Source of the DNA: Warburgia ugandensis | Taxonomy: Eukaryota > Streptophyta > Magnoliopsida > Canellales > Canellaceae | Assembly (NCBI GenBank): GCA_035236585.1 | Contig: CP141127.1 | Coordinates: forward strand, 72,583,495-72,647,494 | Length of the DNA: 64,000 nucleotides | Direction: 5' to 3' | Part shown: piece by piece, positions 3,501-49,109 of the stretch | Layout: each line of letters opens with the position of its first letter | Position numbering within the stretch: position 1 is the stretch's first letter | Notes under the pieces: generated by a model | The model's input: the letters and a program-made list of their open reading frames with translations, nothing else | Databases searched by the model: none | Told to the model about the DNA's origin: nothing | Translations under genes and position numbers: made by a program

Positions 3501-4870
3501 TGTGTCAGATTAAGGGTCAGATCAGTCATAGATCAAGTCTCTGATGATGGATCTGATGTTTAGATTTGAAATCACACATTGGATCTATGAAGATTTGCAC
3601 AAATCTAATGTCGAAGAAGGGTCAATGGCATAGGGTGGTGCCAGAATGGGTCCCACCTATGCAAAATAGATTGAAAGAAAGAGTGGGGAGCAATGGTGGC
3701 CGGTGATGGCTGACGGTGGTTGTTGCTTCAATCACTACTCAAACCTAATAGGGAAGAGGAAAAGATGGAGAGGCAAGGGGGAAGGTTTCCTGGCATGCCA
3801 CCTTGCTCTGGCAGGCACTTAAGCTTACCTATGTAGGGGGCAAGGAAGGCTAGTGGACAGGAAGAATAGGGGTTACAAAATAGGGCATGTGTAGTTGGCC
3901 TGAACACATAGGCATGTTGATTCAACTACTCTAGAATGAAAACAGACAAGCGAGGAGAGAGAAAAGGGATTTAGCACAGCCGATCAGTCTAGTAGCTCAT
4001 AGCTAGCTACACATGAGCAAAAGGAAATGGGGAAATAAAGAACAAGGACTAACTAGGCTAGAAGGGGAAAACAGAGAGGGGAGGAGTTACAACCAACATT
4101 GCTAGAGAAGAAAGAGATGCAGAGGGGGAATAAGGGCTTCTTAGACCTAATCTATTGGCTTACAAGAGGGTCCGACCATCCCTGAGAAAGAGGGATATGC
4201 AGGGGAAATGGATGAGTGTCAGTGCCAAAGAATTTCGACATGGGGATCAAACAGAGTGAATCTCACCAATAGGAATATGATCGAAAGGCATGTCGATGTC
4301 TGAGATTTGGGTTGTCTGGGTCTTAGTTAACACCGAAGAAGGAAGGGAAGGAGAAGTTATAGGTGGGCACTACGGGTTGTGACAATGAACAAAGGAGAGG
4401 TCACTAGTGGGCTATCTAATGGAGCAAAGGGGGCGAGCGTGTTGCATGTTCCCATTTCTAGCATCCCCTGTTTGATGCATTTTAGGTCATCACCTAACAT
4501 GGCAAGCAGCGAGATGTGTGGTGGGTTAACCTGCTATGTGTCAAGTCTGCCCCACATGTGGTGTGCCCTTCATCAGGGTGGCATCCAAACACATTTAGGG
4601 ATGCTGTTATCAATTTAGGCCTCCTCTTAAATTAGTAAAAAATTTTGGTTTTTCCATCCTGATCTCTATTTCACTCAAAGTTAGTATTGTTGGAATCATG
4701 TTAATGCGTACATTTTACTTTTGGTTATTTCAAGTAAAAATTTTAACTTTCCAAAAGAGTCACATCCATGGAATTCAATTTTTTTTATAAAATTTAATTT
4801 TTTATTTTCATTTTAGTTAAAAATGTAATATAAATACATATAAAATGACTCAAATTTGAGGGTTATTATA
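531..4870 (-). mobile_element. Long Ty3/gypsy 5' LTR (about 4.3 kb)
   Basis: It starts TGTGACACCC at 531, beside a tRNA-Met primer site. It ends in a GGTTATTATA string that matches the end of the other long LTRs here, for example GGATCATTATA at 35184. The length of 4,340 bp agrees with the 4,188 bp of the related LTR at 22518-35184 once its insertion is removed. At about 1780-2110 it holds the GC-richer block found in all the long LTRs of the window. The right end is set only by homology, because the matching target duplication would lie outside the window. The short ORFs inside it look spurious. Confidence 0.65.
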
Positions 4871-5469
4871 ATGGATGGACTTGATCATTTCTAGGTTTCA
4901 TATAACTTTCAAATTCAATGAACTACTAGAATTTTAAAGATAATACTTTAACAATTCTGGTAATTTTCCAAATTTAAGAGTTTGTGGGATCAAATTTAAA
5001 TTAAACATTCTAGAAAAAAAGTTGGAACACATTTATAACCCCTCAAAAAAATGAATGGCTCTAAAACTCACTTAAGTTATAAGTTTCCACTGAATTTCTT
5101 TAAGGCCTCTAAGTTATAACTAATTGTCATTTTAGATTATGTATATGCTACTATGTGTACAGATGTGGTCTGAGACTTACTTTCATAGAATACTTTAGAA
5201 AATGAGTAAAATAATAAAGTAATTATATGTAATTCCATTAATAAGATAAAGTTATCTAGACTATACTTTAAAAAATCCAATTCTCATTATAGTGTAGGAA
5301 TTGACCTAAAAATTAAAAAATAAGGAAAATCAACTAAAAAATAGAATCTTCTAGAACGTCAACCTAAAAGAAACATTTTCCCTAACATTTAAAAAGTAGG
5401 ATGATGATAATGAAATGGGAGATGAAAAAATAAAAAGTTCTAAAAAACAATGGAACAGAAACATTACAG
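4871..5469. other. AT-rich intergenic stretch, nothing recognised
   Basis: About 600 bp of AT-rich DNA between the LTR end and the last recognisable reverse-transcriptase residues of the next element. It may be decayed 3' pol (RNase H or integrase) of that element, but I see no motif that proves it. Confidence 0.4.
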
Positions 5470-5479
5470 ATAGAAATGG

Positions 5480-6200
5480 TAGAGAAGATTAGAACCCACT
5501 CAATCCTATTAAACAGGATATATCCTTGGGTCCATATGAAAATGTAATGGCACTGTACCTAGTGCAACACTAAAATTTTCTCCTTAAAACTAGAGAATTC
5601 ATCCATGAAGACCTCTAAAATTTGCTCTACCATATCATTGAAGATACTTAACATGCATCTGTGGAATGTAGCAAGAACATTATATAGTCCAAATAGAATT
5701 ATTTTGCAAGTAAAAGTGCTATCACTTATATCCAAACATGCATCCATGAAGATCTCATTTTGCAAGCAAAGGTGTTCTTTTTTCTTCGAGTGTAATTTCT
5801 ATCTAGTTATATCCAAAATAACCATCTAAAAATATTAAAATTGATGTCATGCAACCCTTTCTAATATTTGATCAACAAAGGGCAAAGAAAAATGTTTTTT
5901 CTTTGGTACTACTTGTGTATGAATCACTCATTTGCTATCACTTATGGCATAAATGATCCCCACATCAAGCAACTTAAGGACTTCTATTTAAACCACATTC
6001 TTTATATTACAATTTAACCTTCCCTATAAGTGATGACACGATTTAGCATCATCCTCTGAAGTGCACCTTTATGTTTCTTGAGGATTTTGAGCAATTATTT
6101 CTCGTGAGATGGTTTCAAATGAGAGACAATTATGACAGAAAAAGTTTCTTCCTCTCCTAAGGAGGCATATTTGAGTTTAGAAGGTAGAGGTTTCAAATCA
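5480..6200 (-). pseudogene. Gypsy reverse transcriptase fragment (Tat/Athila type)
   Basis: Minus-strand fragments in several frames line up in the order expected of plant gypsy reverse transcriptase. First comes a KLKYASLGEEETFSVII-like linker near 6190-6130, then a stretch resembling ..LLDVGIIYAISDSKWV.. near 5990-5930, then FLDGYFGYNxIEITLEE near 5830-5780, and finally ILFGLYNVLATFHRCMLSIF followed by VFMDEFSSF near 5700-5590. The last segment matches the family's GLCNAPATFQRCM..VFMDDF core, with the second catalytic Asp changed to Glu (MDE instead of MDD). Stops and frame changes between the blocks show it is dead. It would have copied the element's RNA into DNA. Confidence 0.75.
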
Positions 6201-6659
6201 TCTTAGGAAATTTTATAGAGGATGGGATTGGAGTGGACTTCATCAGTGGAAGTTCCTCAAAATGAGGTTTCCATCTTTTTGTGTTCATAGGGGGCATAGA
6301 ATCAAGGAGAGCATTAACTTCATCTATTATTTGTCTTCATTAAACTCATTGAAGTGACCAAACAGGCCTCATGTGGAAGAGGTTATGAAATGATCTTGTA
6401 CAACTAAATTTATCATGTTGACATAGTGCAAATCATCAGAGATTTCTCCTAATTACTTGCAAATGTCAAAAATGTTCAGTTTTAATGTTATATTTCCAAA
6501 TGAAAGCTTCATGACACCATTTTTGTAGTTTATTAAGGCATTGGACATAGCCAAAATGGACATCCAAGGATGATGTGGATTTCCTTTTACTCATTCAGAA
6601 CTAGTTGTGTATCCAAAACTAAAAAGTTGACTGGAAAAAAAAAAAAAAAAGAATTATTC

Positions 6660-6830
6660 TATTTGGACTAGCACATCTTCTACTATGCACCTCCATATTA
6701 CCACTGATCTATCAACTAACTAGAATGTAGTAGATTTTGTCTTGAGATCTCCTAGTCTTAGCTAATTATAGATTGTATATGGTAACAAATTAACACTAGA
6801 TCCTAAATCTAAGTGGGCTTGGTTAATATT
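6660..6830 (-). pseudogene. Gypsy aspartic protease fragment
   Basis: The minus strand reads HLDLGSSVNLLPYTIYN, then a stop, then LRLGDLKTKSTTF, and after another stop LVDRSVVIWRCIVEDVLVQ. This is the pattern of the retropepsin-like protease of plant Tat/Athila elements (DLGASVNLLP...L.LADRS...G..EDVLV). The catalytic Asp in DLG is kept. In-frame stops make it non-functional. It lies between the gag array and the reverse transcriptase, as expected in a gag-protease-RT polyprotein. Confidence 0.75.
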
Positions 6831-7296
6831 GTGGTTTCGATGATGCAAGTGAGAGCAGGGCAACCTAGACCCTTGTATTTTTGGGGGGTATGGTGTTGAA
6901 GAATTGTAGTAACTTGTTTAGTCACAACTGCCTTCTTTTCCACAATCAGTTTTCCGCTTGATTATGCATAGATCCTTTAAAATTTTGGCATATGATGGGA
7001 TTTGTTTTATTGCATATAAGATTAGTATGTTGATTTTGACTTGCTTAAATATCTCTATAATCTCATCATTAGTGATACTCTTTATGACTTGATGCAAACA
7101 TTGAGGGAATGGAGTAGGATGGGACATGATTCAATAGGTGGAGTTGGGACCTTCTCTTTAGATTTTTCTTTATCTTTAATGGGTCTTCCACCTGATCAGT
7201 CTTTGGTGGATCATCATTCTCACTTCATTTAGCACTCCAAAGAATGGTAATAGCCTTAGTTTGTTCCATGGTTAAGCTTAAAGATGTGCTAGATGC

Positions 7297-10200
7297 ATTA
7301 TTGCTAACCTCATACCCTTAGGTTTTGCTTGTAATTAAGGTGGAAACTTTCCCTTTTCCATAGTTTACATCCTTGGGCTTTTCATATTAAAATTTCATTC
7401 ATGGATTATGTCGCTTGTTTTAAATGGATTTCCAATTGAGAAGCTTTCCTCTACAAGCCATTTTAGTGGGGGCAAGTAAGGTTCAGGAGCAGGAGGTTGG
7501 TATTGGTATGGGGCGGCAGTAGGGTGCCATTGATTTTATTGGTGAGGCTGGTGTGGACTGGGTTGTGAGACATTAGGAGTGGGTTGATTTCTCTAACTAA
7601 AATTTGGATGGTTTCTCAATTGGGATTATATGTCTCAGATTATGTGGAGAAAGGTCTTTTATATGCATTCAGGACATTAACCTAATCATGAAGTACCTCT
7701 TAGAATGCTTGAATGGTGGGATAATCTAAAGTAGGACATGTGGTACTTTCACAAATGCTTTACACATGTTTGACCTTTATGGACGTGATGTTCACATTTC
7801 CATGGCCTCTACTTTTTAGGCTAGGGATGCAACTTTAGCATTAATCTCATCTTTCTCAGATAAGGCATAAAGGACTTCCCTAGCATGGGTGGTGGGCTTG
7901 GGCCTATATGGATGTTCAACTCTTTCTAAGTTAGCTCAGGTTTGTACTCTCAATAAGCCATTCTAAATACGCCACCTCTTCTAATTGTTAATCCAGGAAG
8001 TTTTCAATGCACATCATCTCTACGAACTAGCACATGTCAAAATTAAACCCATCCTAGAAGATACTAATGATACATCATGGTTTAAAGCTATGTTATGGGT
8101 GTTCATCTAAATAAAGTTCATTGTCTTTTGGAGCAGTGATTTGCTTTATGTGCAGGGGAAAAAAATTCCAAGAATTATTGGTAACCACATGCACACCATT
8201 AGGTTTTGCTTGGGATTAAGGTGGAAACTTTCCTTTTTCTATAGTTTACATCATTGGGCTCATCATATTTACATTTCACTCATGGATTATGTGGCTTGTT
8301 TTAAATGGATTTCCAATTGAGAAGTTTTCCTCTATAAGCCTTCTCAATGGGGGCAAGTAAGGTTTCGGAGTAGGATGTTGGTGTTGGTGTTGGTGTTGGT
8401 ATGGGGCGGGAGTAGGGTGTCCTTGATTTTGTTGGTGAAGCAGGTATGGGCTCAGTTGTGAGACATTGGGAGTTGGTCAATTTCTCTAACTAAAATTTGG
8501 ATGCTTTTGCAGTTGGGATTATATGTCTCAGAGTATGTGGAGAAAGGTCTTTTATATGCATTCAGGGCAGTAACCTGATCATGAAGTACCTCTTAGAAGG
8601 TTAGAATGGTGGGATATTCTAAAGCAGGATATGTGGTACTTTCACAAATTCTATACACTTGTTCAACCTTTTTGAATGTGATGTCGTCATTTTCATGGCC
8701 TCTACTTTTCAAACTAGGGCTACTACTTTAGCATTAAGTTCATCTTTCTATCACATGGCATAAATGCCTTCCTAGGCATAGGTGGTGGGCTTGGTCCTAT
8801 ATGGATGTTCAAGTCTTTCTAAGTTAGCTCAGGCTTGTACTCTCAGTAAGCCATTCTAAATACTCCACCTCTTCTAATTGTTGATCTAGGAAGTTTCCAA
8901 TTCACATCATCTCTACGAACTAGCACATGTCAAAATTAAACCCGTCATAGAAGAAAGTGATGATGCACCATGGTTCATAAGTATGATATGGGTGTCCTTC
9001 TACATAAAGTTCATTACCTTTTGGAGGAGTGATTTGTTTTATGTGTAGGAAAAAAATTTCCAAGAATTAGTGCTAACCTCATGCACACCCTTAGGTTTTG
9101 CTTGTGATTAAGGTGGAACCTTTCCTTTTTCAATAGTTTACATCATTGGGCTCATCATATTTTCAATTTCTTCATGGATTATGTGGTTTGTTTTAATTGG
9201 ATTTCCAATTGAGAAGTTTTCCTCTACAAGCCTTTTCAGTGGGGGCAAGTAAGGTTCAGGAGCAGGAGGTTGGTGTTGGTGTTGGTGTTGGTGTTGGTAT
9301 GGGGTGGGAGCAGGGTGTCCTTGATTTTGTTGGTGAGGCGGGTATGGGCTGGGTTGTGAGACGTTGGGAGTGGGTTGATTTCTCTAACTAAAATTTGGAT
9401 GGTTTCTTAGTTGGGATTATATGTCTCAGAGTATGTAGAGAAAGGTGTTTTATATGCATTCAGGACACTAACCTGATCATGAAGTACCTCTTAGAATGCT
9501 TGAATGGTGGGATATTCTAAAGTAGGACACGTGGTACTTTCACAAGTGCTTTACACATGTTTGACCTTTTTGGATGTGATGTTATCATTTCCATGGCCTC
9601 TACTTTTTAGGCTAGGGATGCTACTTTAGCATTAAGTTCATCTTTCTCAGACAAAGCATAAAGGCGTTCCCTAGCATGGGAGGTGGGCTTGGGCCTGTAT
9701 GCATGTTCAGCTCTTTCTAAGTTAGCTCAGGTTTGTACTCTCATTAAGCCATTATAAATACTCCACCTCTTCTAATTGTTCATCTAAGAAGTTTTCAATG
9801 CACATCATCTCTACGAACTAACGCATGTTAAAATTAAACCCCTCATAGAAGATATTGATGATACATCATGGTTCAAAACTATGATATGGGTGTCCATATA
9901 AATAAAGTTCATTATGTTTTGGAGCAATGATTTGTTTTATGTGCAGGGGAAAAACTATCCAAGAATTATTGGTAACCACATTCACACTGTTAGGTTTTGC
10001 TCAGTATTAAGGTGAAAACTTTCCTTTTTCTATAGTTTACATCATTGGACTCATCATATTTACATTTCACTCATAGATTATGTGGCTTGTTTAAAATGGA
10101 TTTCCAATTGAGAAGTTTTCCTCTACAAGCCTTTTCAATGTGGGCACGTAAGGTTTTGGAGTAGGAGCTTGGTGTTGGTATGGGGTAGGAGCAGGGTGTC

Positions 10201-12612
10201 CTTGATATTGTTGGTGAGGCAAGTATGGTCTCAGTGTTGAGACATTTGGAGTGGGTCAATTTCTCTAACTAAAATTTGGATGCTTTCGCAGTTGGGATTA
10301 TATGTCTCAGAGTATGTGGAGAAAGATCTTTTATATGCATTCAGGGCATTAGCCTTATCATGAAGTACCTCTTAGAACACTGGAATGGTAGGATATTCTG
10401 GGGTAGGATATGTGGTACTGTCACAAATTCTATACACTTGTTTGACCTTTTTGAATGTGAAGTTCTCATATCCATGGCCTCTACTTTTCAAGCTAGGGAT
10501 GCTACATTAGCATTATGTTTGTCTTTCTATGACATGGCATAAATGCTTTCCTTGGCATAGGTGGTGGGCTTGGGCCTATATGGATGTTGAACTCTTTCTA
10601 AGTTGTTTCAGGTTTGTACTCTCTGTAAGCCATTCTAAATACTCCACCTCTTCTAATTCTTAATCCAGGAAGTTTTCAATGCACATCATCTCTACGAACT
10701 AGCGTATGTCAAAATGAAAACCCCTCCTAGAAGATACTAATGATACATCATGGTTCAAAGATATGATATGGGTGTCCATTTAAATAAAGTTCATTATCTT
10801 TTGGAGCAGTGACTTGTTTTATGTGTAGGGGAAAAAAATTTCCAAGATTTATTGCTAACCACATGCACACCGTTAGGTTTTGCTTGGGATTAAGGTGGAA
10901 ACTTTCCTATTCCTATAGTTTACATCATTGGGCTCATCATATTTACATTTCACTCATGGATTATGTGGCTTGTTTTAAATGGATTTCCAATTGAGAATTT
11001 TTCCTCAACAAGCCTTTCCGATGGGGGCAAGTAAGGTTTCGGAGCAGGATGTTGGTGTTGGTATGGGGTGGGAGCAAGGTGTCCTTGATTTTTATTAGTG
11101 AGGCAGGTATGGGCTCAGTTGTGAGACGTTGGGAGTGGGTTGATTTCTCTAACTAAAATTTGGATGGTTTCTCAGTTGGGATTATATGTCTCAAAGAATG
11201 TGGAGAGGGGTCTTTTATATGCATTCAAGGCATTAACCTAATCACAAAGTACATCTTAAAATGCTTGAATGGTGGGATATTCTAAAGTAGGATATGTGGT
11301 ACTTTCACAAATGCTATACACTTGTTTGACCTTTTTGGATGTGATGTTATCATTTCCATGGCCTCTACTTTTCAGGCTAGGGATGCTACTTTAGCATTAA
11401 GTTCATCTTTCTCAGCCATGCCATAAATGCCTTCCCTTGCAAGAGTGGTGAGCTTGGGCTATATGGATGTTTAACTCTTTCTACATTAGCTCAATTTTGT
11501 ACTCTTACTAAGCCATTCTAAATACTCCACCTCTTCTAATTGTTGATCCAGGAAGTTTTCATTGCACATCATCTCTACGATCTAGCACATGTCAAAATTA
11601 AACCCCTCCAAGAAGAAGCTGATGATGCACCATAGTTCAAAGTTATGATATGGGTGTCCTTCTAGATAAAGTTCATTATCTTTTAGAGAAGTGACTTGTT
11701 TTACATGTAGGGAAAAAATTTCCATGAATTATTGCTAACCACATGCACACCGTTAGGTTTTGCTTGGGATTAAGGTGGAAACTTTCCTTTTTCCATAGTT
11801 TACATCATTGGGCTCATCATATTTAGATTTCACTCATGGATTATGTGGCTTATTTTAAATGGATTTCCAATTGAGAAGTTTTCCTCTACAAGCCCTTTCA
11901 ATGGGGGCAAGTAAGGTTCAAGAGCAAGAGGTTGGTGTTGGTATGGGGTGGGAGCAGGGCGTCCTTGATTTTGTTGGTGAGGCGGGTATGGGCTGGGTTA
12001 TGAGACATTGGGAGTGGGTCGATTTCTCTAACTAAAATTTGGATGGTTTCTCAGATGGGATTATATGTCTCAGAGTATGTGGAGAAAGATCTTTTATATG
12101 CATTCAGGGCATTAGCCTTATCATGAAGTACCTCTTAGAACACTGGAATGGTAGGATATTCTGGGGTAGGATATGTGGTACTGTCACAAATTCTATACAC
12201 TTGTTTAACCTTTTTGAATGTGATGTTCTCATTTCCATGGCCTCTACTTTTCAAGCTAGGGATGCTACTTTATCATTAAGTTCATGTTTCTCAGACATGG
12301 CATAAATGCCTTCCTTGGCATATGTGGAGGGCTTGGGCCTATATGGACGTTCAACACTTTGTAAGTTAGCTCAGGTTTGTCCTCTCTGTAAGCCATTCTA
12401 AATGCTCCACCTCTTGTAATTGTTGATCCAGGAAGCTTCCATTGCACATCATCTCTACAAACTGGCACATGTCAAAATTAAACCCCTCATAGAAGAAACT
12501 GATGATGCACCATGGTTCATAAGTATGATATGGGTGTCCTTCTGCATAAAGTTCATTACCTTTTGGAGGAGTGATTTGTTTTATGTGTAGGGAAATTTTT
12601 TTTCAAGAATTC
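7297..12612 (-). repeat. Six-unit tandem array of a ~0.89 kb gag segment
   Basis: The landmark GGTTTTGCTT occurs at 7321, 8202, 9094 and again at equivalent points near 9993, 10876 and 11756, giving periods of about 880-900 bp. On the minus strand each unit encodes the same pieces of Tat/Athila gag: FYEGFNFDMCQFVEMMC, a region resembling DELNAKVASLARKVEAME, a decayed zinc-knuckle-like YRICDSTTYPTPEY, then VLHDQVNALNAYKRPFS, SETYNPN, RNHPNFS and a Gln/His-rich tail. A normal gag has this segment once. The units differ by scattered substitutions and by the number of TTGGTG hexamers. All share the same reading-frame defects. The array replaces the region between gag N-terminus and protease. Confidence 0.85.
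9269..9298. repeat. Hexanucleotide (GTTGGT)n repeat coding for Gln-His on the minus strand
   Basis: Five perfect hexamers in the third gag unit. The equivalent place in the other units has fewer copies (about one in unit 1, four in unit 2, two in units 4-6). On the minus strand it encodes alternating Gln and His in the gag tail. Confidence 0.8.
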
Positions 12613-13158
12613 CCTAAGCATTTCATGGTATGTCCTTATGGAAGCTACTGTCAGTGCATTAAACAATATTTTAACTTTTTCGTTTATAGAGAAGGGAAAA
12701 AGTTTAATCCTCACTATGCCTAAGGCTATGTTTTCTGTAATCTATATGGTACATACTTCATCTAATATCTTAATATATAGGTAAGGACTCTCACTATCTA
12801 GGCCATGAAACTTTGGAAATAACTGGATTACTCTTGTTTTTAACTCTACTGCACCAACATTTGGAGGTAGAATAACATAGGATGGGATGCTAGTTCATGT
12901 TGGCTGTAAATAGTATTTTATAGTTCTTCCATGAGGATGATAATAAAAATCATTATCCCCATGATTACTCTATTGGTCTCACTCTTTGTTTTCATTCCTT
13001 CTCCAAACTCTGTGCATTAGATGATTGTTTCTCCTTGGTAAAGTTTAATACTCATCATCGTTTAGAGGTGGTGGTTCCTCATTCAATATGAGTGGAGGAC
13101 CTTAATCACCTCTATTACTTCCATATGGTGAGCTACCCCTAGATTGGCGATTAGTCAT
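12613..13158 (-). pseudogene. Tat/Athila-like gag, N-terminal part (single copy)
   Basis: Translation on the minus strand from the ATG at 13158-13156 begins MTNRQSRGSSPYGSNRGD. It continues, through stops, with ELKTRVIQLFPKFHGLDSES, PYLYIKILDEVCTI and LGIVRIKLFPFSINEKVKIL, then the segment ending YHEMLREF. This is the capsid-like part of plant Tat/Athila gag (ELK..LI..LP.F.GL..EDPY..L..F..VC..., LRLFPFSL..KAK.WL). Its C-terminal half is the part amplified in the array to the left. Several stops and TGG-to-stop changes disable it. Gag would form the particle that packages the element RNA. Confidence 0.75.
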
Positions 13159-14336
13159 TGATAGTGACTAATCTAGTTGTATGTTATTTTGTTTGTGCTT
13201 GACTAACTGCCCAATTTTATCATGTATCCAAAAGTGCATAAAATGAGAGAATTTTTTCCATTTTTTTTTTTTTTTTATGGGAAAAACTACCCTAAATGAT
13301 GCAACCTAAATGCTAATGATGAATAATGATATAGCACACAATTTAAACAACCCTAAAGCTAACAAGCAGACAATTTGAATGTCTTAAATTTGGTGGGGGA
13401 GAAGCTTTTAGATTAGCCTAATCTAATGCTCCCCCTCTCTTTCACACCTGCCCTAATGCTAACTAGTTAGATTACAACCTAACCAACTGCTTCACACCCT
13501 CTTCACTTAGCTTAGTTAGTATGAGTCATCGAATGTGCTGACAGAGCTAGTCATTTAAATACTAGTACAATCAATTAGACAGGGACCACTAGAGTAGCAA
13601 TGGGTCGCCTCCTTCCAAGGGGGTCCTACAAGCATGTGAGGGCCTCTATTGGTCTTTTGTAATTAATTTTTAAGTTAATTTGGGAGGGTAGATTATGCAC
13701 TTGTGGTGATTATCCTATGTATGCCAAGAGGTGGTAACAAAATCCACCACTTATCTCATGGGGTCGTGCACTTACTAATTAATTTCCATACTCTATAGCA
13801 GTTCGATCAAAAGACAAATATGCCCTAAAATGCTATTAAAAAGTAATAAACTAATACAAGCTTTAAAATGCAACAAGTATAAACTATGGTATCTATATGC
13901 AATTATGCTACCAAAGAATAATGCAAGATTATTTTAATTATACAAACCTAATTTAAGAATTATAAGGAGTTATGATTGCTCATAGTGGGATCCTCAATAA
14001 AGTCTACTCGTACAAGGGTGGAACCATTTATATTCCACCTTCACTTGTAAGTTATGATGGTCCACCCTTGACATATATTATTACAAACTTTTTAAATGAA
14101 TTGTGATTAAAAAATACAATTCGTCTTCATTATAATTCACTCAAAATAAAATTAGCTATCCTAATTAAGATCTCCTTTAATTCCTTTTCCAATTTCCTAC
14201 AAAATCAAAAATAGCAATAAGTACTAAATTTCAAGAAAGGGAGTGATTATGCAATGAAATAATTAAAAAATGTACCTAAAATGCTTAGAATGCTAACCTA
14301 AATTTTTTTTTAATTTTATGAAAACTCTATTGCGGG
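13159..14336 (-). mobile_element. Untranslated leader of the Tat/Athila-like element
   Basis: This lies between the primer site and the gag start. There are no coding motifs. It includes a poly-T run near 13259-13276 and a GC-richer passage around 13600-13760. Long non-coding leaders in this position are usual for Tat/Athila elements. Confidence 0.5.
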
Positions 14337-14354
14337 TCCCTAACAACAGCGCAA
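14337..14354 (-). other. Degenerate primer binding site, tRNA-Asp type
   Basis: Read on the minus strand, TTGCGCTGTTGTTAGGGA is close to TGGCGCCGTTGCCGGGGA, the tRNA-Asp-complementary site typical of Athila/Tat elements. Most differences are C-to-T or G-to-A changes expected from decay of methylated DNA. This primer type separates the element from the tRNA-Met-primed gypsy elements in the same window. Confidence 0.6.
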
Positions 14355-14357
14355 AAA

Positions 14358-15144
14358 ACTTGTTATTTTTTGCAAGTTCTCGAGTTATTGTAGTATAATG
14401 TGTGCAAGTAAGGGTTAATCTGACAAGGACTCGACTTAAAAAGTGGGAGTTTAAATAAAATTTAAATTAATAGAATTAATATAAATTAGAATTAGACAGC
14501 AATACACTAAAACAAACTCAAATTTATTGCTTAAATAAAAATTAAAAATGGTTTAACTCTATTAATATTGCGCTAGCCCAATCTATATCTACTAAAGCAT
14601 TGTGAGTGGTCTTGGAGAAAATAGGAAAGTGACATACATTTCTTAAGTTACCTCTTGTTTTTACCCTAGCTACTAGATAATCTATAATTCAGTCCTTTGG
14701 ATCACCATATGAATATCTTCACTCTTAGCAATGCTTGAAATGGACCTTGTTATTAAGGTTGAGAAGTCTCTGCGTCCTTTACAGTAACTTCTTCTCTATT
14801 TGTGTTGAGCTTCTCCATTTCTTGCCCAAGATCTTTTTCATCATCGAAGCTAGATGGCTTTCTCAAAGAATTCATAGATTCATCAAATAAAATATGAACG
14901 GACTTTTTTTGCATAGATTCGTCAAATAATAAGGTAATCCTTATTATTTTTCAAAATGAAATATTTGCAATCAAATGAATGAAGATATGAAACCTTAATT
15001 TTCCTACCTTTCCAAGGTTCACATGGAGTCCTTTTCAAAATACATCTCATGGTGCACCTGTTCAAGACAAAGCAGGTTGTGTTAATATCTTTTGCCCAAG
15101 CTAGCTAAGATCAACTCTCCCAAGTTATAACATTTCAGCAAAGT
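14358..15144 (-). mobile_element. Probable 5' LTR portion of the Tat/Athila-like element
   Basis: This starts next to the tRNA-Asp-like primer site, with TGTTATTTTTTGC (LTR end in minus sense) at about 14361. No second copy exists in the window, so the LTR length is unknown. It is cut at 15145 by the insertion of a solo LTR and may resume at 17778. Confidence 0.4.
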
Positions 15145-17772
15145 TGTGACGACCCAGGTTTTCTCATGCATTTTTAAATGCAATACCTAATTTCCTAAGG
15201 CGGGATGCATCCTTATTTGAAAACCATTCTATAAAAAACCATGCAATGCAGCGGAAAACCTTTAGTTTTAAACTCATTTTTGAAAACCTGAGTGTCATTT
15301 GCCTTCACAACAACCAAAGTAGTTTTTGAAAAACTTCAGAAATCATAAATATTTTTTCCCAGGTCTTTCCAGTCACAACACACAGCCCAACTGTAATTAA
15401 ATACAACTTCATGTCCAAAGGGTTGAGAGTTTACTTACATGTATAACTTTCTTCTTTTTGATTCACTTGCTCGTAGCACTAATATCTTCCTGAGACGTCT
15501 TCTATTTATGAGTGGAACTATCCTGAAAAATGTTAAGGATAGAGTGAGTATATACTATACTCAGTAGGAGTCTATCACTACTAGTTTTATAATGCATGCA
15601 ATGTTTTAAAATCATATGCTCTTTCCAAAACATGTGCATGTCTGAATACTCAAGTTCAACATCGACATCAAAATCCATTGTCAAACTGAAATACTAACGA
15701 CTTAAAGGATCATATAATCCAAAATTGAAAGTATCATATACATATATATATCATAGCATTATGATATGCATAAAATGCTTCATGGAATCCAACTCATGGA
15801 TCTCTAGTATGGTATGGTCGACCAACCTCATATCATGCCATATGCAATGCACATAAATCATCAAACCATAGGGTCCACTATGCCCATGACCTCCTCGCCG
15901 TGTGGTCCCCGGGTACCTGAGGACACTCGGTCATAGCCTCCACGGGGCTTATGACAGGTCGACCCAGTGCCGTGACACCAGTGGTAGCCCCCTGTACTAC
16001 TTGCAGTCGACATAGGGACTTGCCTCTTTTTGGGCGTGGTACCCATCCACCTATTAGTGGTAGAGGCCGGGTGGCCAACCCAGATCCCTTGGCATAGCAC
16101 CCACAGGCTTACTTGCTCAAATCACATAAGATTAAAGAAGCCAAAACCTCTTGTTAAAACTTGTCCTCTTTGGGTCCCTCACAACTGCCTGGCCCTCGGC
16201 ACTCCAGCGTCTTTTGGCAACCCTCAAGGACATGCAATCTTTGCAAGTACTTAAATCATGCAATGTATGCACTTGTTTGCAACCCATATATGTGCATAAT
16301 GTATATGCAATCATTTCAAAACATGGCTATGTACAAAGCATTTATCATGCATGCAAATCAAGTCATATATTTAAAACACATGTTCTCAAAATAATAATAG
16401 TTCTTTTAAAAGAATCTAATAGTGATAGAGCACCTACCTGGCTAGGTCGCGCTAACCCATTTGTCCTCGTACGCTCCTGAACATGGTTTAGGGACTCAAG
16501 GTTAGTTTGACCCATCTTTTATAGGTTTTAGAGTAGTTGGGTCTTATTACTTAGGCATTAGGGGTCCATCCCTATGCCTATGGGTGTCCTAAGGTCCTAA
16601 TTGAGCCTTGGTATTATCAATTTTCCAAAGGTCTAGTGGCCACGCCCCACCATCCTATTCTAAGGGTCATGCCCACCTTTGATTGGCCTTGATCATGAAT
16701 TTTATAGTTTGGATGTGTCCACGTCGTCGACACGAACACAACGCCTTTTGCGACGCCTCAATCGGAGCTCTAGATCTCAAGTTATAAGTGTTTTAGTGTC
16801 GCACGTACATAAGACCCTTAAGAATTAAAAGACGGAATGCTAGGGCGCTACACGTCAGCGTCATGCGCCCTGGCTTCCTTAACAAACCAAAAACGACGCC
16901 TTTGCTAGCGCACTGTGCGTTTGCGGCGTGCTCCTTAGCGGGCGCGCCTGCAGACGCGCGGTACGCTCCGCCCGTTTTCCTCTTTAGCGGGCGCGCCCAT
17001 TTGGTTCCTCTCAAACGCGTTCGACACGTCTCGTCTGTTTGGGCGTCTTGGTCGTTAGGGGACCGGGGCGTCCTTGGGATGCCCTGGTTCGTCCCTGAGG
17101 AACCAGTGCGGCCCTGAGGACGTCCCAAGGTCCTTGGTGACTCCCTAGAGACCTATTCCCCATGGATTTTTATGCAAAAACCTAGGGAAACCGAGCTTAG
17201 AACTGTGGGTGAGATGGGTTTGGGGATTTTTTGTGCGTACCTGCTTCGTGGCCGGTTTTCTCTCCATGTTTTCTCCTCTAGGTCGCTGCTCCTCAACGGG
17301 TTTTCTCCCACATTTTGGGCTACCATTAGAGGCGCCCAAGAGCTCTATTTATAGGGCTTTTAAAGAGGGTTCTGGAGGGGTTCTAAACGCCTTTCAATGG
17401 CGGTGGAGAAACCTCCAGAATGGCGGTGGTTTCTCCTTGAAACACCGACGTTCCAGAAACCTCTAAGAGGTTGAAGATGAAGGGTGCCTGTATCAAAACA
17501 GGCCCCTGTGTTTTGCAGTTAAATCCGTTTTTGTAAAAATTTACAGTTTTGCCCCTGAACTTCAAAGGGCTATAACTTGCTCAGTTTAACTCCGTTTTAA
17601 GTGATTTTGGTCTTGTTGGATTCCTTTTTTCAAGACGCACCTAATGGTATCATTTTTAGGACCAAATTTCTGGGTTCAGTCAGGGTGAATAGTGAAATGA
17701 CTAAAATACCCTTATCTTCAAAAACTGAACTTTTCATGGGATTTTAATATTACAAAAATTGGGGTCATTACA
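15145..17772 (-). mobile_element. Solo LTR, gypsy family A (2.6 kb)
   Basis: It begins TGTGACGACCC and ends GGGGTCATTACA, and is flanked by the perfect 5-bp duplication AAAGT (15140-15144 and 17773-17777). It is highly similar to the two LTRs of the complete element at 23160-31633 and, in reverse orientation, to 49110-51648. There is no primer site or polypurine tract next to it, so it is a solo LTR left by recombination between two LTRs. The sense strand is minus, judged from the complete copy. The ORFs inside recur in the other copies because the DNA is shared; they resemble no known protein. Confidence 0.9.
17346..17353 (-). promoter_or_regulatory. TATA box of the family A solo LTR
   Basis: TATAAATA on the minus strand, about 420 bp from the LTR 5' end in sense orientation. 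It is conserved at the same place in all four family A LTRs. A CpG-rich tract follows in the transcribed direction. Confidence 0.55.
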
Positions 17773-17777
17773 AAAGT

Positions 17778-20700
17778 TTTCTCGTATGCTAACCTGAAGG
17801 TCAATGTATGCAAACAAGGATGAACAAAAGACCATCCTTTGTTCAAATGACAAGTTAGTTTTCTGCTGGTTGCCTTTGCTGTATGGGCGGAGCCACCATG
17901 TGATAATGGCTCCTTTTTTCTGTATTTAATGTTTTTAGCTGGCACAATCCTTTCTCCCGTGTGGAAGATATGAGAAGACTCTTATAAGACATGCCCTAAC
18001 TTTCCAGTGACGGCCTATCCTTCCCAGTTCAAGATGATAAGCTGTGGAAGTTTCTTAGCATTAATGTGGTATGGCCCTGAGAGGCTTTCGGAGCTGTTTT
18101 GGTACGGATGAAGCTGCTTGGTTGGAAATCTCCATCTCCGTCTTATCTTGAACATATAAACATGCAATACACTTCCTCGTAGCACTAAAATCACATCAAT
18201 GGGCCAGATTCTTTGGCTCTAAGATGCCAAGATGAGAGACTTGATTGAATGGAGCTTCGTGATTGGATCCTTGGTTTGCAGAAATATATTGGGCCGAAGT
18301 CGTGTCGGCAGCCTGAGTTCTTGTTCCCTTCTGTTTGTGGGCCTTGATACGCCAGGCCTCGTTTGTATTAGAGTGCGTTCGTTGCATGCTAATCGAGCTC
18401 ATGCGACAACTAATATTTTACCATGCTTTATTTGGTATGGGGTCAAAGTGGGACGTTTTTGTGACTACCCTTGGATCCTTTCTGTTGAACATTAGCTTTT
18501 CATCGCCTGGGAAAAAATACAAAAGCAAACTAAACAGGTCTTTTGAGCAATAAAATGGGAGCGTCTATAACGGCATCATTTCTAAAACAATAATATTCTT
18601 AATACTAACAAGTAACCACTTAAAAAGAGATAACTTTAATGTCGACCAAAACACAGGCATTGTAGAAAATTTAACAAAGAAGGAAAGAAAAAGAAACACT
18701 ATGGCATGGTATATACCGATGCCGAGGCTGCTCCTAGGATTTTCGTGAACTAGAACATGGGATACAAGAACTGGATGCATGTCAAAACAACATATTAATA
18801 ACCTTGCTATTATGGTTTTTAAGAAGATTTCAGAGACTACTGAAGTTCGGGAGAAGGCTTTACGGTGAAATTATAGTCGATGACGTGCATCTTATTATAG
18901 TGAACACCAACCCTGATCGTGAACTATAGCTTATATGTCCCCATTTGCATTTGTAAAACCCAATACACTGAAATGGAGCTCCGTCGTTGATTGAAGATCA
19001 TATAATCCTATTGTTTATTCTTTTGTGATTTTTGCACTCTCAACCTGGTAACTCGCATCTTAAAGGCCAAGACTATATAGTATAGGGATAACTACCAAGA
19101 ATAAGCTTCTCCGTGGGTTTTGGGTGCCTCAAAATGGAGATAGAATTTAAATTTAGAGTCCTGAAAAGAGTCCAGCTGGAAGTCTTTTTTTTTTTTTTTT
19201 TTTGGGTAGTATCTGCTCATCGTGTTTCCAATGGCTTAGGGCTTTAGATAGGCTAGATATCAAGTTTCGTGCCAATTGGATGCTTTTGGCCTATGTTTCT
19301 GTGGTCAAAAATTATAACTATGCATTTTAATCATTCTTCAAAGACCCAATAAGTGATTAGGATCCTCCAAATACATTGATTTCTTGTGAGTTTCCTAATT
19401 TGATACAGTAAACAAGATGAATGATTTAGATCTACAAAAAGTGTTTCACCATATATGAAAGTGGTGTGTGCCCTTTTTCCATCTTCACTCTTACCAAGAT
19501 TCTTAATTTATGTAAAATGTAAAAGAAGCATATAATCCCTTGTAAAAGAAGTATATATAGTCCCTTCGGAGAAGCCAATATATTCATGAACAGCTATTTG
19601 GAGCCTTAGAACATCGATACAATTATCCTAGACAGCATAGCTTGGGCTATTTGTTCCAAAATAAGTTTATCAGACTTATAGGCTGCAAATAGGAGGAAAA
19701 AATTTCACTATTTCAGAATGAGTTAGATCGTGATTCTTGTTCCTGCCGCAAAACCGCCCCAAAAGATGGTTTGAGAGATCGTGGATATAGAAGCTTTCTA
19801 CTTCGAGCATGAAATGCCATTGCGTAGTGGTTGCCGTTTCTCAAACGTGAAAACTGATCCTCAAAACGGACATTTCCTTGCGTGGATGGCTAGAATTCCT
19901 CATCTTGATCCTATCATCCGTGCATGCTTTGTCTGTGGTGATGGCGGTGGGACCTATCATCCATCCCGAGTGAACGAAGACATGGATGTGGCCTTTGTAT
20001 TGTGTTTTATATGTTAGTTAGAGAAGACTAGCCATAAGATGCCAAATTACACAAATCTAAAGTATGAGTAGGGTCGGATGATTGGGGATACATGCCGCTT
20101 AGTTTGAGGACACATCTCAGATAGGCCATGCACCAAAATCTTCTCCGCAGTTTGGATGATCCAATTCGTAGCCACTATTATCCTTTCGCCAAAAAGTCGA
20201 ACCAATCATTGAGTAGTCAAAAAATTATGAACAAGTGCTTACCTAATTCTACAATTAACACAAATACTGACGACGAAAATGGTGATTGTTCCTGCTTAAC
20301 ATACTAAGAGGCTGTATGGCACAGGGATAAGGATCCATTGATCTGAGTCATCAATTTAAGTTATTTCGTCAGCTTCTTTTTTCAGCAATTTTATCTATGT
20401 TTTAGTGCTGCAAATAGCAGGGAGAAAAGCAGTATGCGCATATCACTCATTCACAAGCTTTTATGTGTCGAAAGACTCTAAAAGTCATAAGATCTACGCA
20501 AACGCCTGATTAGAGAAGCATCTTGATTGCTGATTATGGTCAATTAGCGGTTTAGTAAATTAATCCAGAAAACCTGGGCCACGTTAAGACAACCTGTTTG
20601 GGGTTGTCAACATGGGTGGTTTCAATTGGCCACAGCGAGCATTCGCAAACTTATAATCCCTCTCTTGACGTTTTATGGTCTAAGGAGGCCCAGTCGGCTT

Positions 20701-23159: not shown

Positions 23160-25802
23160 TGTAATGACTCGAGTTTTGTCATGCATTTTTAAATGCAATA
23201 CCTAATTTTCTAAGGCGGGATGCATCCCTATTTGAAAACCATTCTATAAAAACCATGCAATGCAACAGAAAATCTTTAGTTTTAAACTCATTTTTGAAAA
23301 CCCCGAGTGTCATTTGCCTTTACAACAACTAAAGTAGTTTTTGAAAAACTTCAGAAATCATATATATTTTTTCCCCAGGTCTTTCCAGTCACAGCACACA
23401 GCCCAACTGTAATTAAATACAACTTCATGACTAAAGGGTTGAGAGTTTACTTACATGTATAACTCTCTTCTTTTTTATTCACTTGCTCATAGCACTCATA
23501 TCTCCTGAGACGTCTCCTATTTATGAGTGGAACTATCCTGAAAAATGTTAAGGATAGGGTGAGTATATACTATACTCAGTAGGAGTCTATCACTACTAGT
23601 TTTATAATGCATGCGATGTTTTAAAATCATATGCCCTTTCCAAAACATGTGCATGTCTGAATACTCAAGTCAATATCGACATCAAAATCCATTGTCAAAC
23701 TGAAATACTAACGACTTAAAGGATCATATAATCCAAAATCGAAAGTATCATATACATGTATATCATAACATCATGATATGCATAAAATGCTTCATGGAAT
23801 CCAACTCATGGATCTCTAGTATGGTATAGTCGACCAACCTCATATCATGCCATATGCAATGCACCTAAACCATCAAACCATAGGGTCCACTATGCCCATG
23901 ACCTCCTCGCCGTGTGGTCCCCGGGTACCTGAGGACACTCGGTCATAGCCTCCACGGGGCCTATGACACGTCGACCCAGTGCCGTGACACCAGTGGTAGC
24001 CCCCTGTACCACATGCAGTCGACGTAGGGACTTGCCTCTTTTTGGGCGTGGTACCCATCCACCTATTAGTGGTAGAGGTCGGGTGGCCAACCCAGACCCC
24101 TCGGCATAGCACCCACAGGCTTACTAGCCCAAATCACATAAGATCAAATAAGCCAAAATCTCTTTTCAAAACCTGTCCTCTTTGGGTCCCTCACAACTGC
24201 CTGGCCCTTGACACTCCAGCATCTTTTGGCAACCCTCAAGGACATGCAATTTTTGCAAGTACTTAAATCATGCAATGTATGCACTTGTTTGCAAAACACA
24301 TATGTGCATAATGTATATGCAATCCTTTACAAAACATGTCTATGTACAAAACGTTTATCACATGCATGCTGAATCAAGTCATGCTAAACAAGTCATATAC
24401 TTATAACATATGTTCTCAAAATAATAATAGATCTTTTAAAAGAATCTAATAGTGATAGAGCACCTACCTGGCTAGGTCGCGCTAACCCTTTTGTCCTCGG
24501 ACACTCCTAATCATGGTTTGGGGAATCAAGGTTAGTTTGGCCTATCTTTTATGGGTTTTAGAGTAATTGGTCTCATTACTTAGGCATTAAGGATCCATCC
24601 CTATGCCTATGGGTGTCCTAAGGTCCTAATTGGGCCTTGGTATCCTTAGTTTTCCAAAGTTCTAGTGGCCACATGCCACCATCCTATTCTAAGGGTCATG
24701 CCCACCTTTTATTGGGCCTTGATCAGGGATTTTATAGTTTGGATGTGTCCGTGTCGTCGACACAAACACAACGCCTTTTGCGGCGCCTCAATCGGAGCTC
24801 TAGATCTCAAGTTATAAGCGTTTTAGTGTCATATGTACATAGAGTCTTAATGATAAAAAGACGGAATGCTAGGGCGTTGCGCGTCTGCGACGTGCGCCCC
24901 AGCTTCCTTAAGGAACCAAAAGACAACGCGCTGCGCGTCTGCAGCGTGTGCCTCAGCGGGCGCATTTGCAGACGCGCAGCACTCCTCAGCCCGTCTTCCT
25001 CTTTAGCGGGCGTGTCTACGGACGCGCTCGTTGGTTTCCTCTCAGACGCGTTCGACGCGTCTCGTCCAGATTGGGGCGTTTCCATCGTTGGGGGACCGGG
25101 GCGTCCTTGGGATGCCCTGGTTCGTCCCTGAGGAACCACTGCGGCCCTGGGGACGTCCCAGGATCCTTGGTGACTCCCTAGAGACCTATTCTCCATAGAT
25201 TTTCATGCAAAAACCTAGGGAAACTGAGCCTAGGACTATGGGTGAGATGGGTTTGGGGAGTTTTTGTGCGTACCTACTTCGTGGCTGGTTTGCTCTCCAC
25301 GTTTTCTCCTCTAGGTCACTGCTCCATGATGGATTTTCTCCAACGTTTTGGGCTGCCATTAGAGGCACCCAAGAGCTCTATTTATAGAGCTAAGAGAGGG
25401 TTCTGGAGGGGGCTCTCACCGCCTTTGAATGGCGGTGGAGAAACCTCCAGAATGGTGGTGATTTCTCCTCCAATCACCGCCGTTCTAGAACCCTCTAGAG
25501 GTTGAAGACGACGGGGTGCCCGTATCAAAATGGGCCCCTGTGTTTTTCAGGATAAGTCGTTTTTGTAAAATTTACAGTTTTGCCCATGAACTTCAAAGGG
25601 CCATATCTTGCTCATTTTAACTCCGTTTTGGGTGATTTTGGTCTCGTTGGATTCCTTTTTCCGAGACGCATCTAATGGAACCATTTTTAGGACTAAATTC
25701 CTGGGTTTAGTTAAGACAACTAGTGAAATGACCAAAATGCCCTTATCTTTAAAACTGAACTTTTCATGGGATTTTAATATTACAAAAATTGGGGTCATTA
25801 CA
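23160..25802 (-). mobile_element. 3' LTR of the complete family A element
   Basis: 2,643 bp, starting TGTAATGACTC (a decayed form of TGTGACGACCC) and ending GGGGTCATTACA. It is about 115 bp longer than its partner at 29105-31633. The differences include deletions in the partner near 29200, near 29990 and in the GC-rich repeats near 30800. It contains a TATA box on the minus strand at 25379-25386. Confidence 0.9.
25379..25386 (-). promoter_or_regulatory. TATA box of the 3' LTR, family A element
   Basis: TATAAATA on the minus strand at the conserved position in the LTR. The flanking CTCTATTTATAGAG is itself a small palindrome. Confidence 0.5.
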
Positions 25803-25845
25803 TTATTACTCCCTTAAAAGAATTTCGTCCTCAAAATTCAATAAC
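25803..25845 (-). other. Polypurine tract and end of pol
   Basis: On the minus strand this ends GACGAAATTCTTTTAAGGGA, right before the 3' LTR. A FEDEIL-type pol end followed by a purine tract is common in plant chromovirus-like gypsy elements. In frame it reads NFEDEILLRE followed by two stops. The tract would prime second-strand synthesis. Confidence 0.75.
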
Positions 25846-28800
25846 TTATTATCTTCCAGGTATTTGTCTCTTAGATGATTTCTTGGTGAATGCATTCCCC
25901 TTTAGGAAGCAATTCTAGGTTCTTCCTCAATTTATCATTTCCATTATTCCTCCTATAAGGCCTCACCTATAAGGGCCTGTTTTTGCTGCGTACTCTGATT
26001 CAGCGCCATACTCTCATACCTGCTGATTTAACAATACCGTTTCCTAGCGGTACTTCATCTATCTTGAATTCCTTAGATTCCTATACTTATCTCATCACGT
26101 ATAAGATAGTCTCCTTGTAAGATCATGCTTCTTTGCTCGTGCATATACTTCTTTCATAGGATAATCCTTTTTATCTAGTGATCTCTTTCATTATTCACAA
26201 GTTCAAAAAGTTACCTTCTTTCTATTGTGTCTAACTTTGCTTCTTACCCTTGTCTCCAAGATACTTCAATAATCTGATATGGTATCATATACTTTATAGC
26301 CAAACTCTTACTTAACTTTGAATTTCAACTGTCTGTCATTTTTCTTATGTGACTTGATTTCCTTGACCAAGGTTACATTCGAAAATAAAAGCCAAATAGT
26401 AGCATCTTCCATTGAGGACCTTATCATATACTGAAAGTAAAATGTCCTAACTTCATATCCAGTTTCATTATTGAATTCATTAAATGCTTTCCTCTGTTAG
26501 GATCTTATCCAAACTCATGTCAAATGTTAATGGTCGATTCATCATCATGAGTCGTATGTTCTCGTCTAGAAGCCTATCTCACTATTTCTCATCCATTTGT
26601 CATTTAGGATTTTCAATAATGTTCTCATTCATGCAAGGTAAAAAGTTTCTTATAACCGAGTATCCTTACTAGGTCATGCTTGAATCCTTTGTCTTCATCC
26701 TCTTTGCCCTTTCTTTGCTTGATGGTTTTCTTTGTAACCTTTCAGCCCAAAAGTTATATACTCAATCCGGTAGGGTTAGTCCTTAGAAAATTCCTTCAGT
26801 TGATTTTTCGTACTTGGTATATGCTCATAACAACTAACTATTTGTCAAAAAAGCAATGTAACATCCAATCTTACCTTATAGTGTGCTAGCCATCTCACCT
26901 TATCCCCTATGTCAAAATATTGTTCAATCTTTTACCAAGGCTTTATCGTCAACCATGTAGTTTGTATTGTCAGTAGGTACCCTCATAAGTAGTGATTTTC
27001 TCAATTCCTCAAATTTTATTTTTCAAGTGCCTCCTTATTTTATCTTTTAAGTGCCTTCTCATACTTAGCTTATAATAGCAATAATTCGTCTTCAATAGCG
27101 ATTATATCAAATTGTACTGAAGTTGTTAACTCCACAAGTTTTACAATACTCAGATAAGCATAAAGACTTTATTTGATTACCTATTGATCTCTTCCCAGAT
27201 ACGTTATAAGCTCAAGGGCCTCTAGAGTGATCGGTACTTATCTTCCTTTCTTTCAATCCAAGTCTATAGTATTTTTCAGACCCAAAGTAATTTCTTCACC
27301 TTGTCATGGTAGCCACTAAGGTTTGAAAAACCTTTCACATTGGTTTAGATCACTTCTTATTTTTGCTCCTATCTCAGTTGTTACTATATTTATTGTAATT
27401 GTAGTTCTTCATGATGTGGCCTAATCAACTTCATGATGTGGCCTAATCAACTGGCCTTATACCCTCAAATGACTTAGCCTATCAAGTACTCAAGTTTAAA
27501 GACTTATAACATCCTTCTGAGTATATAACTTCAACTACTAACTCATAGACACTAACATACCTGATTAATTAGGGTGGGATGCCTCTATTTAGTTAACAAC
27601 ACTCAATGATGGTCTTAAAATATTTGATCTTCCAATCTATGATGGCGAGACCTCAATTTGATCCTTGATGGTACCCTACTTGCTAAATGGATAAGTTACT
27701 GTCCTGGCCTATTTCCTTTTTCAATATAACTTTATTCACTCATGTAGTGGCAAGGTGAGATATCACCAAATTTTCCTTTTTATGGATTATATCCATTGGT
27801 GTCCCCCATAAGCTAATGGATCTTGATAAGAATCTTATTGATATCAAACCATTTGTAGAATTTTAATTTCTAGTTAGTCACTATTCCCTTTCGAAACTTT
27901 CTTGTCGCATAATCTGTTGAAATTCGATACTTTTACTCAAAATCTTAAATCCCATATGCTTTCTCTCTATTATACGTATCCTTGCCAACTCAACTATTAT
28001 TTTTCCTTTGCATTTGTTTGATCTTCCCTCCTATAGGATTCAAGATGTTAGAATTATATGTATCTTCATATAGTCATGATCTTCTTCTTTTGATTATTCA
28101 ATATTCATCGAATACTTATGGTTACATCTCTATCCCTTTCTCTCTTTTCTTCAATATCCATTTGGTCTACCTGGATCAATGTCTCTATATGCGTTGTTGC
28201 ATATATTTGATACTGCATCTACTCCTTTACTTAACAAATATGATAAACTGAATGCTTCTCAGAAATTCTAAACTGTCTTAATAATGGCATTGACATTTTG
28301 GTCATGCTACACTTCTCTTACAAGTTCATGTTAGGATCAATCTATTATTATCCTTAGTATTATCATCAAAATCTTTTGATAACTTGGTTGAATTCATTTC
28401 CCTATCACATAATATGTCACTTGTATGCATCTCCGGATTTGTTCCATAATACTCAAGTAGTTATTATTCGATAGCTCTTTATTCTTTATAAGACTTCAAT
28501 CAAGGTATCAAAATTGAGCTAAGTCTTTCAAGATTCATACCTTTGTCATCTAGTACAAGTCACAGTTATCCCTTAGTATCATCTTGTATGCTTATCCCTA
28601 TTATCATCAAAATTTTCTCAAAGTCTGTCTTTTACATCTCATATATCACATCCTTGTGATAGTGTACTCATATTCTGATATTCTTTATGATGGTAAGATA
28701 ACCATCTAGGTCTTTTGATTTTTCTCACCTTTGATAAGATTACTTTATTGCAGGCCAACACTATCTATTAACAAGTCCATTAATCATCTTCATTCATTCA

Positions 28801-29090
28801 TTCTCATCACAATACGATCCTTATATGAGATTTCATCTTTGCACCACTGCACAATAATTCTTATTTCCTATAATTTTGATAGGATTCAAGCATTCCAATA
28901 TCTAAGTATTTGCTAGGACTATCTCCTTGTTCTCCTAAGTGTTTATGGTGAAATGTCTTGAGTCATTTATAATCCTCAAATAGAAGTAGCCATCTCTACT
29001 ACTCCTATTTATACTACTTGTTCTTGATTTTCTTTATTGTCTATGACCCTTGGACATCTTTGGGTTGTTGTGAAAGGATAAAACACATTA
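25846..29090 (-). mobile_element. Internal region of the family A element, no intact genes
   Basis: About 3.2 kb, rich in A on the sense (minus) strand, with stops in every frame. Only the last few codons (DKYLEDNKLLNFEDEILLRE near the polypurine tract) look like gypsy pol. I could not recognise protease, reverse transcriptase, RNase H or integrase. At 3.3 kb it is too short for a full gag-pol. A short direct repeat of ATGATGTGGCCTAATCAACT occurs near 27410-27450. Confidence 0.6.
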
Positions 29091-29102
29091 ACTCTGATAC
29101 CA
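29091..29102 (-). other. Primer binding site of the family A element, tRNA-Met type
   Basis: The minus strand reads TGGTATCAGAGT, an 11-of-12 match to the site for plant initiator tRNA-Met. It lies two bases from the 5' LTR start at 29105, and this fixes the element's orientation. Confidence 0.85.
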
Positions 29103-29104
29103 AC

Positions 29105-40000: not shown

Positions 40001-40950
40001 AAGTTCCATGGTTTGGAAATGTGTAAATGACTTTATTTATGCATAAATACCAATGGTTACACAAAACGGAATTACATGATCTTATTACTTTTCTTGAAAT
40101 TACGTCTCTTGCATGCCGTGTTTTCAAATTAGTAGTATCAGGTCACCTACTGAGTATGATGAATACTCAACCAAATCCATTATTTTTTATATCATACAAA
40201 GTACAATTAGAATGAGCTTTAAAGAGTGTTAGTACTATAATCAAATGAGCAAAGGTAAGGCTAAGTGAGGATATAATTGTACCAGATTTCATTTTGAGTG
40301 ATCCTTTTAGTATTTGATGTAAAATTGGTTGTAAGTAATTATTTATAACTTGGGCTGTAATTAACAATCTTGGGAATGGTAATTATTCATTTTTATATTT
40401 TGGCCAAAAGTTGCCATGGCATGATTCATTATCTATTGATTGAGATCAGTTAATGACAAGCGGGGTTTTCTCGTGAAAAAGTTCCATGGTTTGGAAATGT
40501 ATAAATGAGTTTATTTATGCATAAATACTAATGGTTACACAAAACAGAATTGCATGATCTTATTACTTTCCTGAAATTATGTCTCTTGCAAGCTATGTTT
40601 TCAAATTAGTAGTATCAGGTCACCTACTGAGTATGATGAATACTCAACCAAATTCATTATTTTTCATATCAGACAAAGTACAATTAGAATGAGCTTTAGA
40701 GAGTGTTAGTACTGCAGTCAAATGAGCGAAGGTAAGGCTAAGTGAGGATATAATTGTACCAGATTTCATATTGAGTGATCCTTTTAGTATTTGATGTCAA
40801 ATTGGTTGTAAGTAATTATTTGTAACTTGGGCTGTGATTAACAATCTTGGGAATGGTAATTATTCATTTTTATATTTTGTCCATAAGTTGCCATGGCATG
40901 ATTCATTATCTGTTCATTGAGATTAGTTAATGACACTCAGGGGCTTTTTG
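40001..40950 (+). repeat. 478-bp tandem duplication within the solo LTR
   Basis: The stretch from 40001 (AAGTTCCATGGTTTGGAAAT) recurs from 40479 with few differences. It includes two copies of the hairpin CTACTGAGTATGATGAATACTC. The other long LTRs have this region once. Confidence 0.85.
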
Positions 40951-41088
40951 TGAAAATGTTTCAAATAAAAGAAAATTTTTGTTGCATTCATTTTGAAAAA
41001 TTGTTTTAAAAAAAATAGAGATCAATCTCGCAAGTGAAAGCTTGTTATTTTAAAATTGCATTATAAAAACTTGGGTCGTCACAATAAG

Positions 41089-49104: not shown

Positions 49105-49109
49105 TCCAC

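Follow-up and report, generated by a model that had tools for sequence, protein, structure and literature searches.

The window analyzed here, a stretch of 64 kb, carries on its minus strand (positions 7297-12611) six head-to-tail copies of a segment spanning most of a Ty3/gypsy gag, raising the question of whether this coding segment was amplified while the element was alive or only after it had decayed. The initial annotation had described six head-to-tail gag copies of about 0.89 kb at positions 7297-12612, and the repeat search, self-BLAST and alignment all confirm this description, with the edges correct to one base. The repeat search over positions 6500-13500 identified 11 direct families, of which D9 has five copies and the other 10 have six. 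Successive spacings in these families range from 879 to 899 nt, except for the gap where D9 skips one copy, and the six 300-nt copies of family D1 are spaced by 893, 898, 881, 884 and 879 nt. In agreement with these results, BLAST of positions 4000-18000 against the window returned the off-diagonal matches of the units between 7293 and 12611 and detected no unit matches outside the array, the six units thus occupying a single place in the 64 kb. The array was not reported by Tandem Repeats Finder, the longest period being 500. Across 20 letter-shuffles of positions 7000-13000 no off-diagonal BLAST match exceeded 27 nt, indicating that the array is not a product of chance.

Unit edges and lengths were taken from the alignment and the junctions, and units were numbered in the coding (minus) sense. 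The first unit, U1 (11731-12611, 881 nt), remains joined to the native upstream gag. It is followed by U2 (10851-11730, 880 nt), U3 (9968-10850, 883 nt), U4 (9069-9967, 899 nt), U5 (8177-9068, 892 nt) and U6 (7297-8176, 880 nt), the last of which is joined to single-copy downstream sequence. The six lengths (880-899 nt) sum to 5315 nt. Global alignment of all 15 pairs yielded identities between 0.864 and 0.907, with a mean of 0.881, and copies hence differ from each other at 9-14% of sites. Only six gap blocks (within alignment columns 22-914) differ among units, with hexamer repeats adding 18 nt to U4 and 12 nt to U5. The Gln/His-rich tail that had been attributed to the unit is indeed present, and its source is a run of ACCAAC-type hexamers.

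The reading of the unit as a segment of a Ty3/gypsy-type gag was upheld by protein comparison. When U1 was read in a single frame, with stops rendered as X, two of 47 candidates emerged as relatives at E<=0.01. These are P0001 (258 aa, PF03732; E 1.4e-26, 40% identity over 68% of the U1 query) and a second gag relative, P0002 (191 aa; E 7.1e-24, 37% identity). Frameshift-tolerant alignment to P0001 was used as the yardstick for all units, and hence refers to one unbroken relative at about 40% identity. It covers P0001 residues 1-254 in U1 and U3, 5-254 in U4, 5-253 in U5, 5-252 in U2 and 5-246 in U6. In U1 the alignment extends past the 5' edge of the array, with the last pre-array codons in register at P0001 residues 1-16, indicating that U1 lies in its native gag context. 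A search of viral contigs with P0001 returned one pattern match and no relative.

The remainder of the element is single-copy, as proposed in the initial annotation for the upstream gag, the protease and the reverse transcriptase. The N-terminal part of the broken gag occupies positions 12612-13180 of the minus strand, as judged from a single-frame reading with stops in which the upper limit was placed by eye and is approximate. Pfam searches with five broken pieces yielded no match for this one, and overall returned two matches to unrelated families, both below cut-off (E 0.17 and 0.19). Downstream of the array on the same strand lies a broken aspartic protease region (6250-7040), for which the lower limit was set by the sequence submitted to alignment (7250-6250). 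Its search yielded 341 candidates, of which 312 were relatives at E<=0.001, and several of the best 120 of the 312 are assigned to PF13650. Alignments to P0123 and P0125 revealed four stops each, with six and seven frameshifts, respectively. A broken and internally deleted reverse transcriptase fragment follows on the minus strand at 5560-6065, its lower limit reflecting that the relatives used end soon after 5560. Alignments to P0003 and P0004 identified six and five stops in this fragment, and four frameshifts each. Of 133 candidates in the search, 129 qualified as relatives at E<=0.001, and the first 33 of the 129 all map to PF00078. Named matches include proteins from Vitis, Actinidia, Persea, Linum, Malania and Xanthoceras, and the element is thus of plant type; one match with a bacterial name, Corallococcus, was present among those listed.

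The locus hence presents gag, protease and reverse transcriptase in succession on one strand, as in a Ty3/gypsy relic. Self-BLAST detected no repeat pair bracketing the element, a search that strongly decayed LTRs could escape, and we read the absence of paired LTRs as loss in a relic. Assignment of the element to Tat/Athila derives from the initial annotation and from characteristic motifs, and with a reverse transcriptase fragment that is short and deleted this label is putative. A stretch near 14350 resembles a primer-binding site by eye.

Comparison with the unbroken relative outlined a set of lesions common to all copies. Between P0001 residues 17 and 48, all six units have lost 17 residues (18 in U6), with the placement of the loss varying by copy, and P0002, as read by eye, retains the stretch lost from all of them. 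Every unit also presents stops at W103, R143 (TGA in four units and TAA in two), Q186 and W223, as well as frameshifts at 99-100 and 213-218. The W103 stop, the 99-100 frameshift and the stretch 90-100 in general align poorly, and the firm set therefore comprises three stops and a single frameshift. All six units likewise have frameshifts at 90 and 91, which jointly amount to one codon and were left uncounted, and two TAA codons shared by all units lie past the end of P0001, beyond the reach of any relative. Other lesions are distributed unevenly. Q71 is replaced by TAG in five units (U1 has CAG) and W55 by TGA in three; stops at Y62, K84 and Q192 occur in two units each, and the remaining stops are private to one unit.

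The frequency of T at majority-C columns is 50/1092 in CHH, 13/84 in CHG and 4/18 in CG contexts. Even at the CG rate, six parallel changes matching at one place would be rare, and the same coincidence would have to be repeated at several places. The alignments thus indicate that the copies seen today descend from an ancestor that was itself broken, independent acquisition of the same lesions by six copies being implausible. Exchange between copies can spread lesions, and what the shared damage dates is consequently the ancestor from which the present copies descend, rather than, strictly, the first duplication. No single-unit relative of the array-bearing insertion was seen in the 64-kb window. 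With regard to base composition, the units have almost no CG left, with three CG positions in the majority letters, and the commonest private change is C-to-T (33 of 155 single-copy differences). Both features fit methylated, decaying DNA, as expected.

The five internal junctions present one and the same structure, in which the end of gag joins the start of gag at a shared AAT (3 nt), with single letters around it since altered in some junctions. This implies a single founding duplication that was multiplied later. The overlap itself provides a weak mechanistic hint, since 6.6% of random joins in the region show an overlap of at least 3 nt. Given these observations, we assign a probability of roughly 0.74 to the reading in which a broken gag stretch was duplicated in the chromosome after decay, expanded to six units, exchanged sequence among them and drifted neutrally; confidence is not higher because exchange between units could have spread the lesions later. 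Following insertion of a Ty3/gypsy LTR retrotransposon in a plant chromosome and the onset of its decay, gag would have acquired several stops and at least one frameshift, in addition to losing 17-18 residues. A stretch of about 0.88 kb, comprising most of gag, would then have been duplicated once, head to tail, at the 3-nt shared sequence, via either illegitimate recombination or slippage. The resulting long direct repeats would permit the unequal exchange or slippage leading to six units, and conversion or exchange among these would generate mosaics, with neutral drift acting throughout.

The same junction evidence would also suit an origin during reverse transcription, in which template switching on the RNA of an already broken copy produced the tandem, and intact relatives assisted in trans with insertion of the element carrying it. 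A single junction structure with a 3-nt overlap is compatible with strand transfer, and the shared damage would pre-exist in the template. This scenario is nonetheless unlikely, because the transposing copy would have had at least three stops and a frameshift in gag, together with the loss of 17-18 residues. Moreover, no second array is present within the window, and exchange between units, evident in their mosaic composition, would suffice for expansion.

Evidence for such exchange was obtained from 60 two-state informative sites, among which 44.6% of pairs are incompatible. Incompatibility drops to 0.186 between neighboring informative sites, compared to 0.447 under permutation, with none of 5000 permutations reaching a value as low. 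The unit nearest to U1 changes by thirds, from U5 (0.091) to U3 (0.053) and U4 (0.076). Identical tracts are shared by U1 and U3 (151 nt; 0 of 1000 permutations) and by U2 and U5 (85 nt; 2 of 1000), with U2-U4 as the one other pair below 0.05; 15 pairs were tried, and the p values are uncorrected for that number. The units are thus mosaics shaped by exchange among them, with conversion and unequal crossing over fitting the data equally. Simple pairwise doubling is ruled out by the shift in nearest neighbors along the unit.

Alignments to P0001 contain between 5 and 12 stops per unit, with the maximum in U6. The resulting density of 2.2-5.5 stops per 100 codons overlaps those of the single-copy protease and reverse transcriptase (1.5-1.8 and 3.5-4.0, respectively). 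No unit length is a multiple of three, and single-frame readings indicate that gag continues into gag in frame at one of the five junctions (U2-U3). The proportion of variable sites at codon positions 1, 2 and 3 is 0.329, 0.262 and 0.296 in the frame of U1, and ranges between 0.283-0.318, 0.264-0.284 and 0.285-0.311 in those of U2-U6. The second position is the lowest in all six frames, by a small margin. Neither an open reading frame through the units nor selection on codons was hence detected, and nothing in these readings points to a working product from the array.

The initial annotation had also contemplated an expansion with a role in RNA packaging or structure, fixed before the element died, and this proposal is not supported, given the stops, loss and frameshift shared by six of six units and the little codon-position bias. 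For it to hold, a working gag expansion would have arisen in a living element, with later death and spread of the damage by exchange. Exchange between units is supported and variability is slightly lower at the second codon position in each of the six frames, as this account would have it. Against it, the codon-position bias is slight, none of the six lengths is divisible by three, only the U2-U3 junction is in frame, and several separate lesions must each have reached six copies that are still 9-14% apart. We therefore regard a working gag expansion as very unlikely, and reject it on the shared stops and little codon-position bias. Assembly artefact, in which a single unit was falsely repeated, is extremely improbable and is rejected on the 9-14% divergence, since false duplicates are expected to be near identical, and these copies additionally carry private stops and differing numbers of hexamers.

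Under the preferred reading of amplification after decay, the array would represent satellite formation at an early stage, at which it may have stalled, and presumably codes for nothing; "seed of a satellite", as initially suggested, is a fair name for this stage. That the gag unit is prone to amplification in this family, so that other gag arrays or a gag-derived satellite of about 0.88 kb exist in the genome, appears rather improbable; if true, it would make a retrotransposon coding region a source from which satellites arise repeatedly.

The array is of a known kind, the retrotransposon-derived tandem repeats, in which a single part of an element supplies units arranged head to tail. Its initial description as unusual was overstated, since such repeats are well known and the available text of PMC3648361 and PMC9659126 reports gag-related ones. 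CRM1TR and CRM4TR are maize tandem repeats from centromeric retrotransposons, with LTR and UTR as their source, for which the authors suggest an onset by illegitimate recombination and amplification mainly through gene conversion, recombinant monomers being among them (PMC3648361, in the part available). The present units likewise derive wholly from a Ty3/gypsy element, but they come from gag, number six and lie inside their parent, whereas the maize repeats form many islands in or near centromeres. Gag-related tandem repeats comprise E3900 in rye and a centromeric 250-bp repeat in wheat and its relatives (Cheng and Murata 2003), the latter as described in the available portions of PMC3648361 and PMC9659126. 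The wheat repeat shares similarity to Ty3/gypsy gag with the present unit and holds a CAA microsatellite where the latter has an ACCAAC-type run; unlike that centromeric repeat family, the present unit is about 885 bp long and has one known place.

Short tandem arrays inside Ty3/gypsy elements have also been described, within the available text of PMC7004042, in Ogre, where nine Lathyrus sativus satellites also occur as arrays, an element origin being supported for at least three. In contrast to the present array, located in gag and known from one copy, the Ogre arrays are found in many copies, at a position downstream of gag-pol. Retand elements, which are non-chromovirus Ty3/gypsy elements, similarly contain tandem arrays, but between pol and the 3' LTR and in about half of the potentially recently active elements (PMC11963269, in the part available). 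Among the literature matches listed, no title or abstract opening reports an array of several gag units located within the element they come from. What is special about this array is its coding source, its long unit and the parent framing it on both sides. It has grown beyond its one founding duplication but is not yet a true satellite, so that onset, growth and exchange can be followed in succession, and suggests that a dead coding stretch may serve as well as LTRs or untranslated parts as a source of tandem repeats. Scoring the damage common to all copies against an unbroken relative additionally provides a simple test of whether a repeat was amplified alive or dead.

Other features were identified elsewhere in the window. 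Positions 23160-31633 contain what looks like a full-length LTR element on the minus strand, with LTRs at 23160-25802 and 29105-31633 that are about 95-96% identical in aligned blocks and a flanking 5-bp duplication (GTTTC). Just inside 29105 lies a primer-binding-like stretch, with a putative tRNA assignment. A solo LTR of the same family, flanked by an AAAGT duplication, occurs at 15145-17772, upstream of the array's gag, and an inverted, more diverged partial copy of this LTR (81-84% identical to the others) lies at 49112-51317. Two minus-strand open reading frames span 46822-49133; the lower matches RVT_1 weakly (E 2.3e-4, below the curated cut-off), and the upper, without a Pfam match, resembles a LINE endonuclease by eye. 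Pfam searches on five open reading frames of the window returned weak matches only, all below cut-off, and Rfam at gathering scores and a tRNA scan of the whole window returned nothing. A unit of about 477 bp is tandemly duplicated at 39999-40960 (93% identity), the segment 53464-54131 recurs at 54129-54814 (86%), and parts of 54929-56188 recur in inverted orientation at 63062-64000 (87%).
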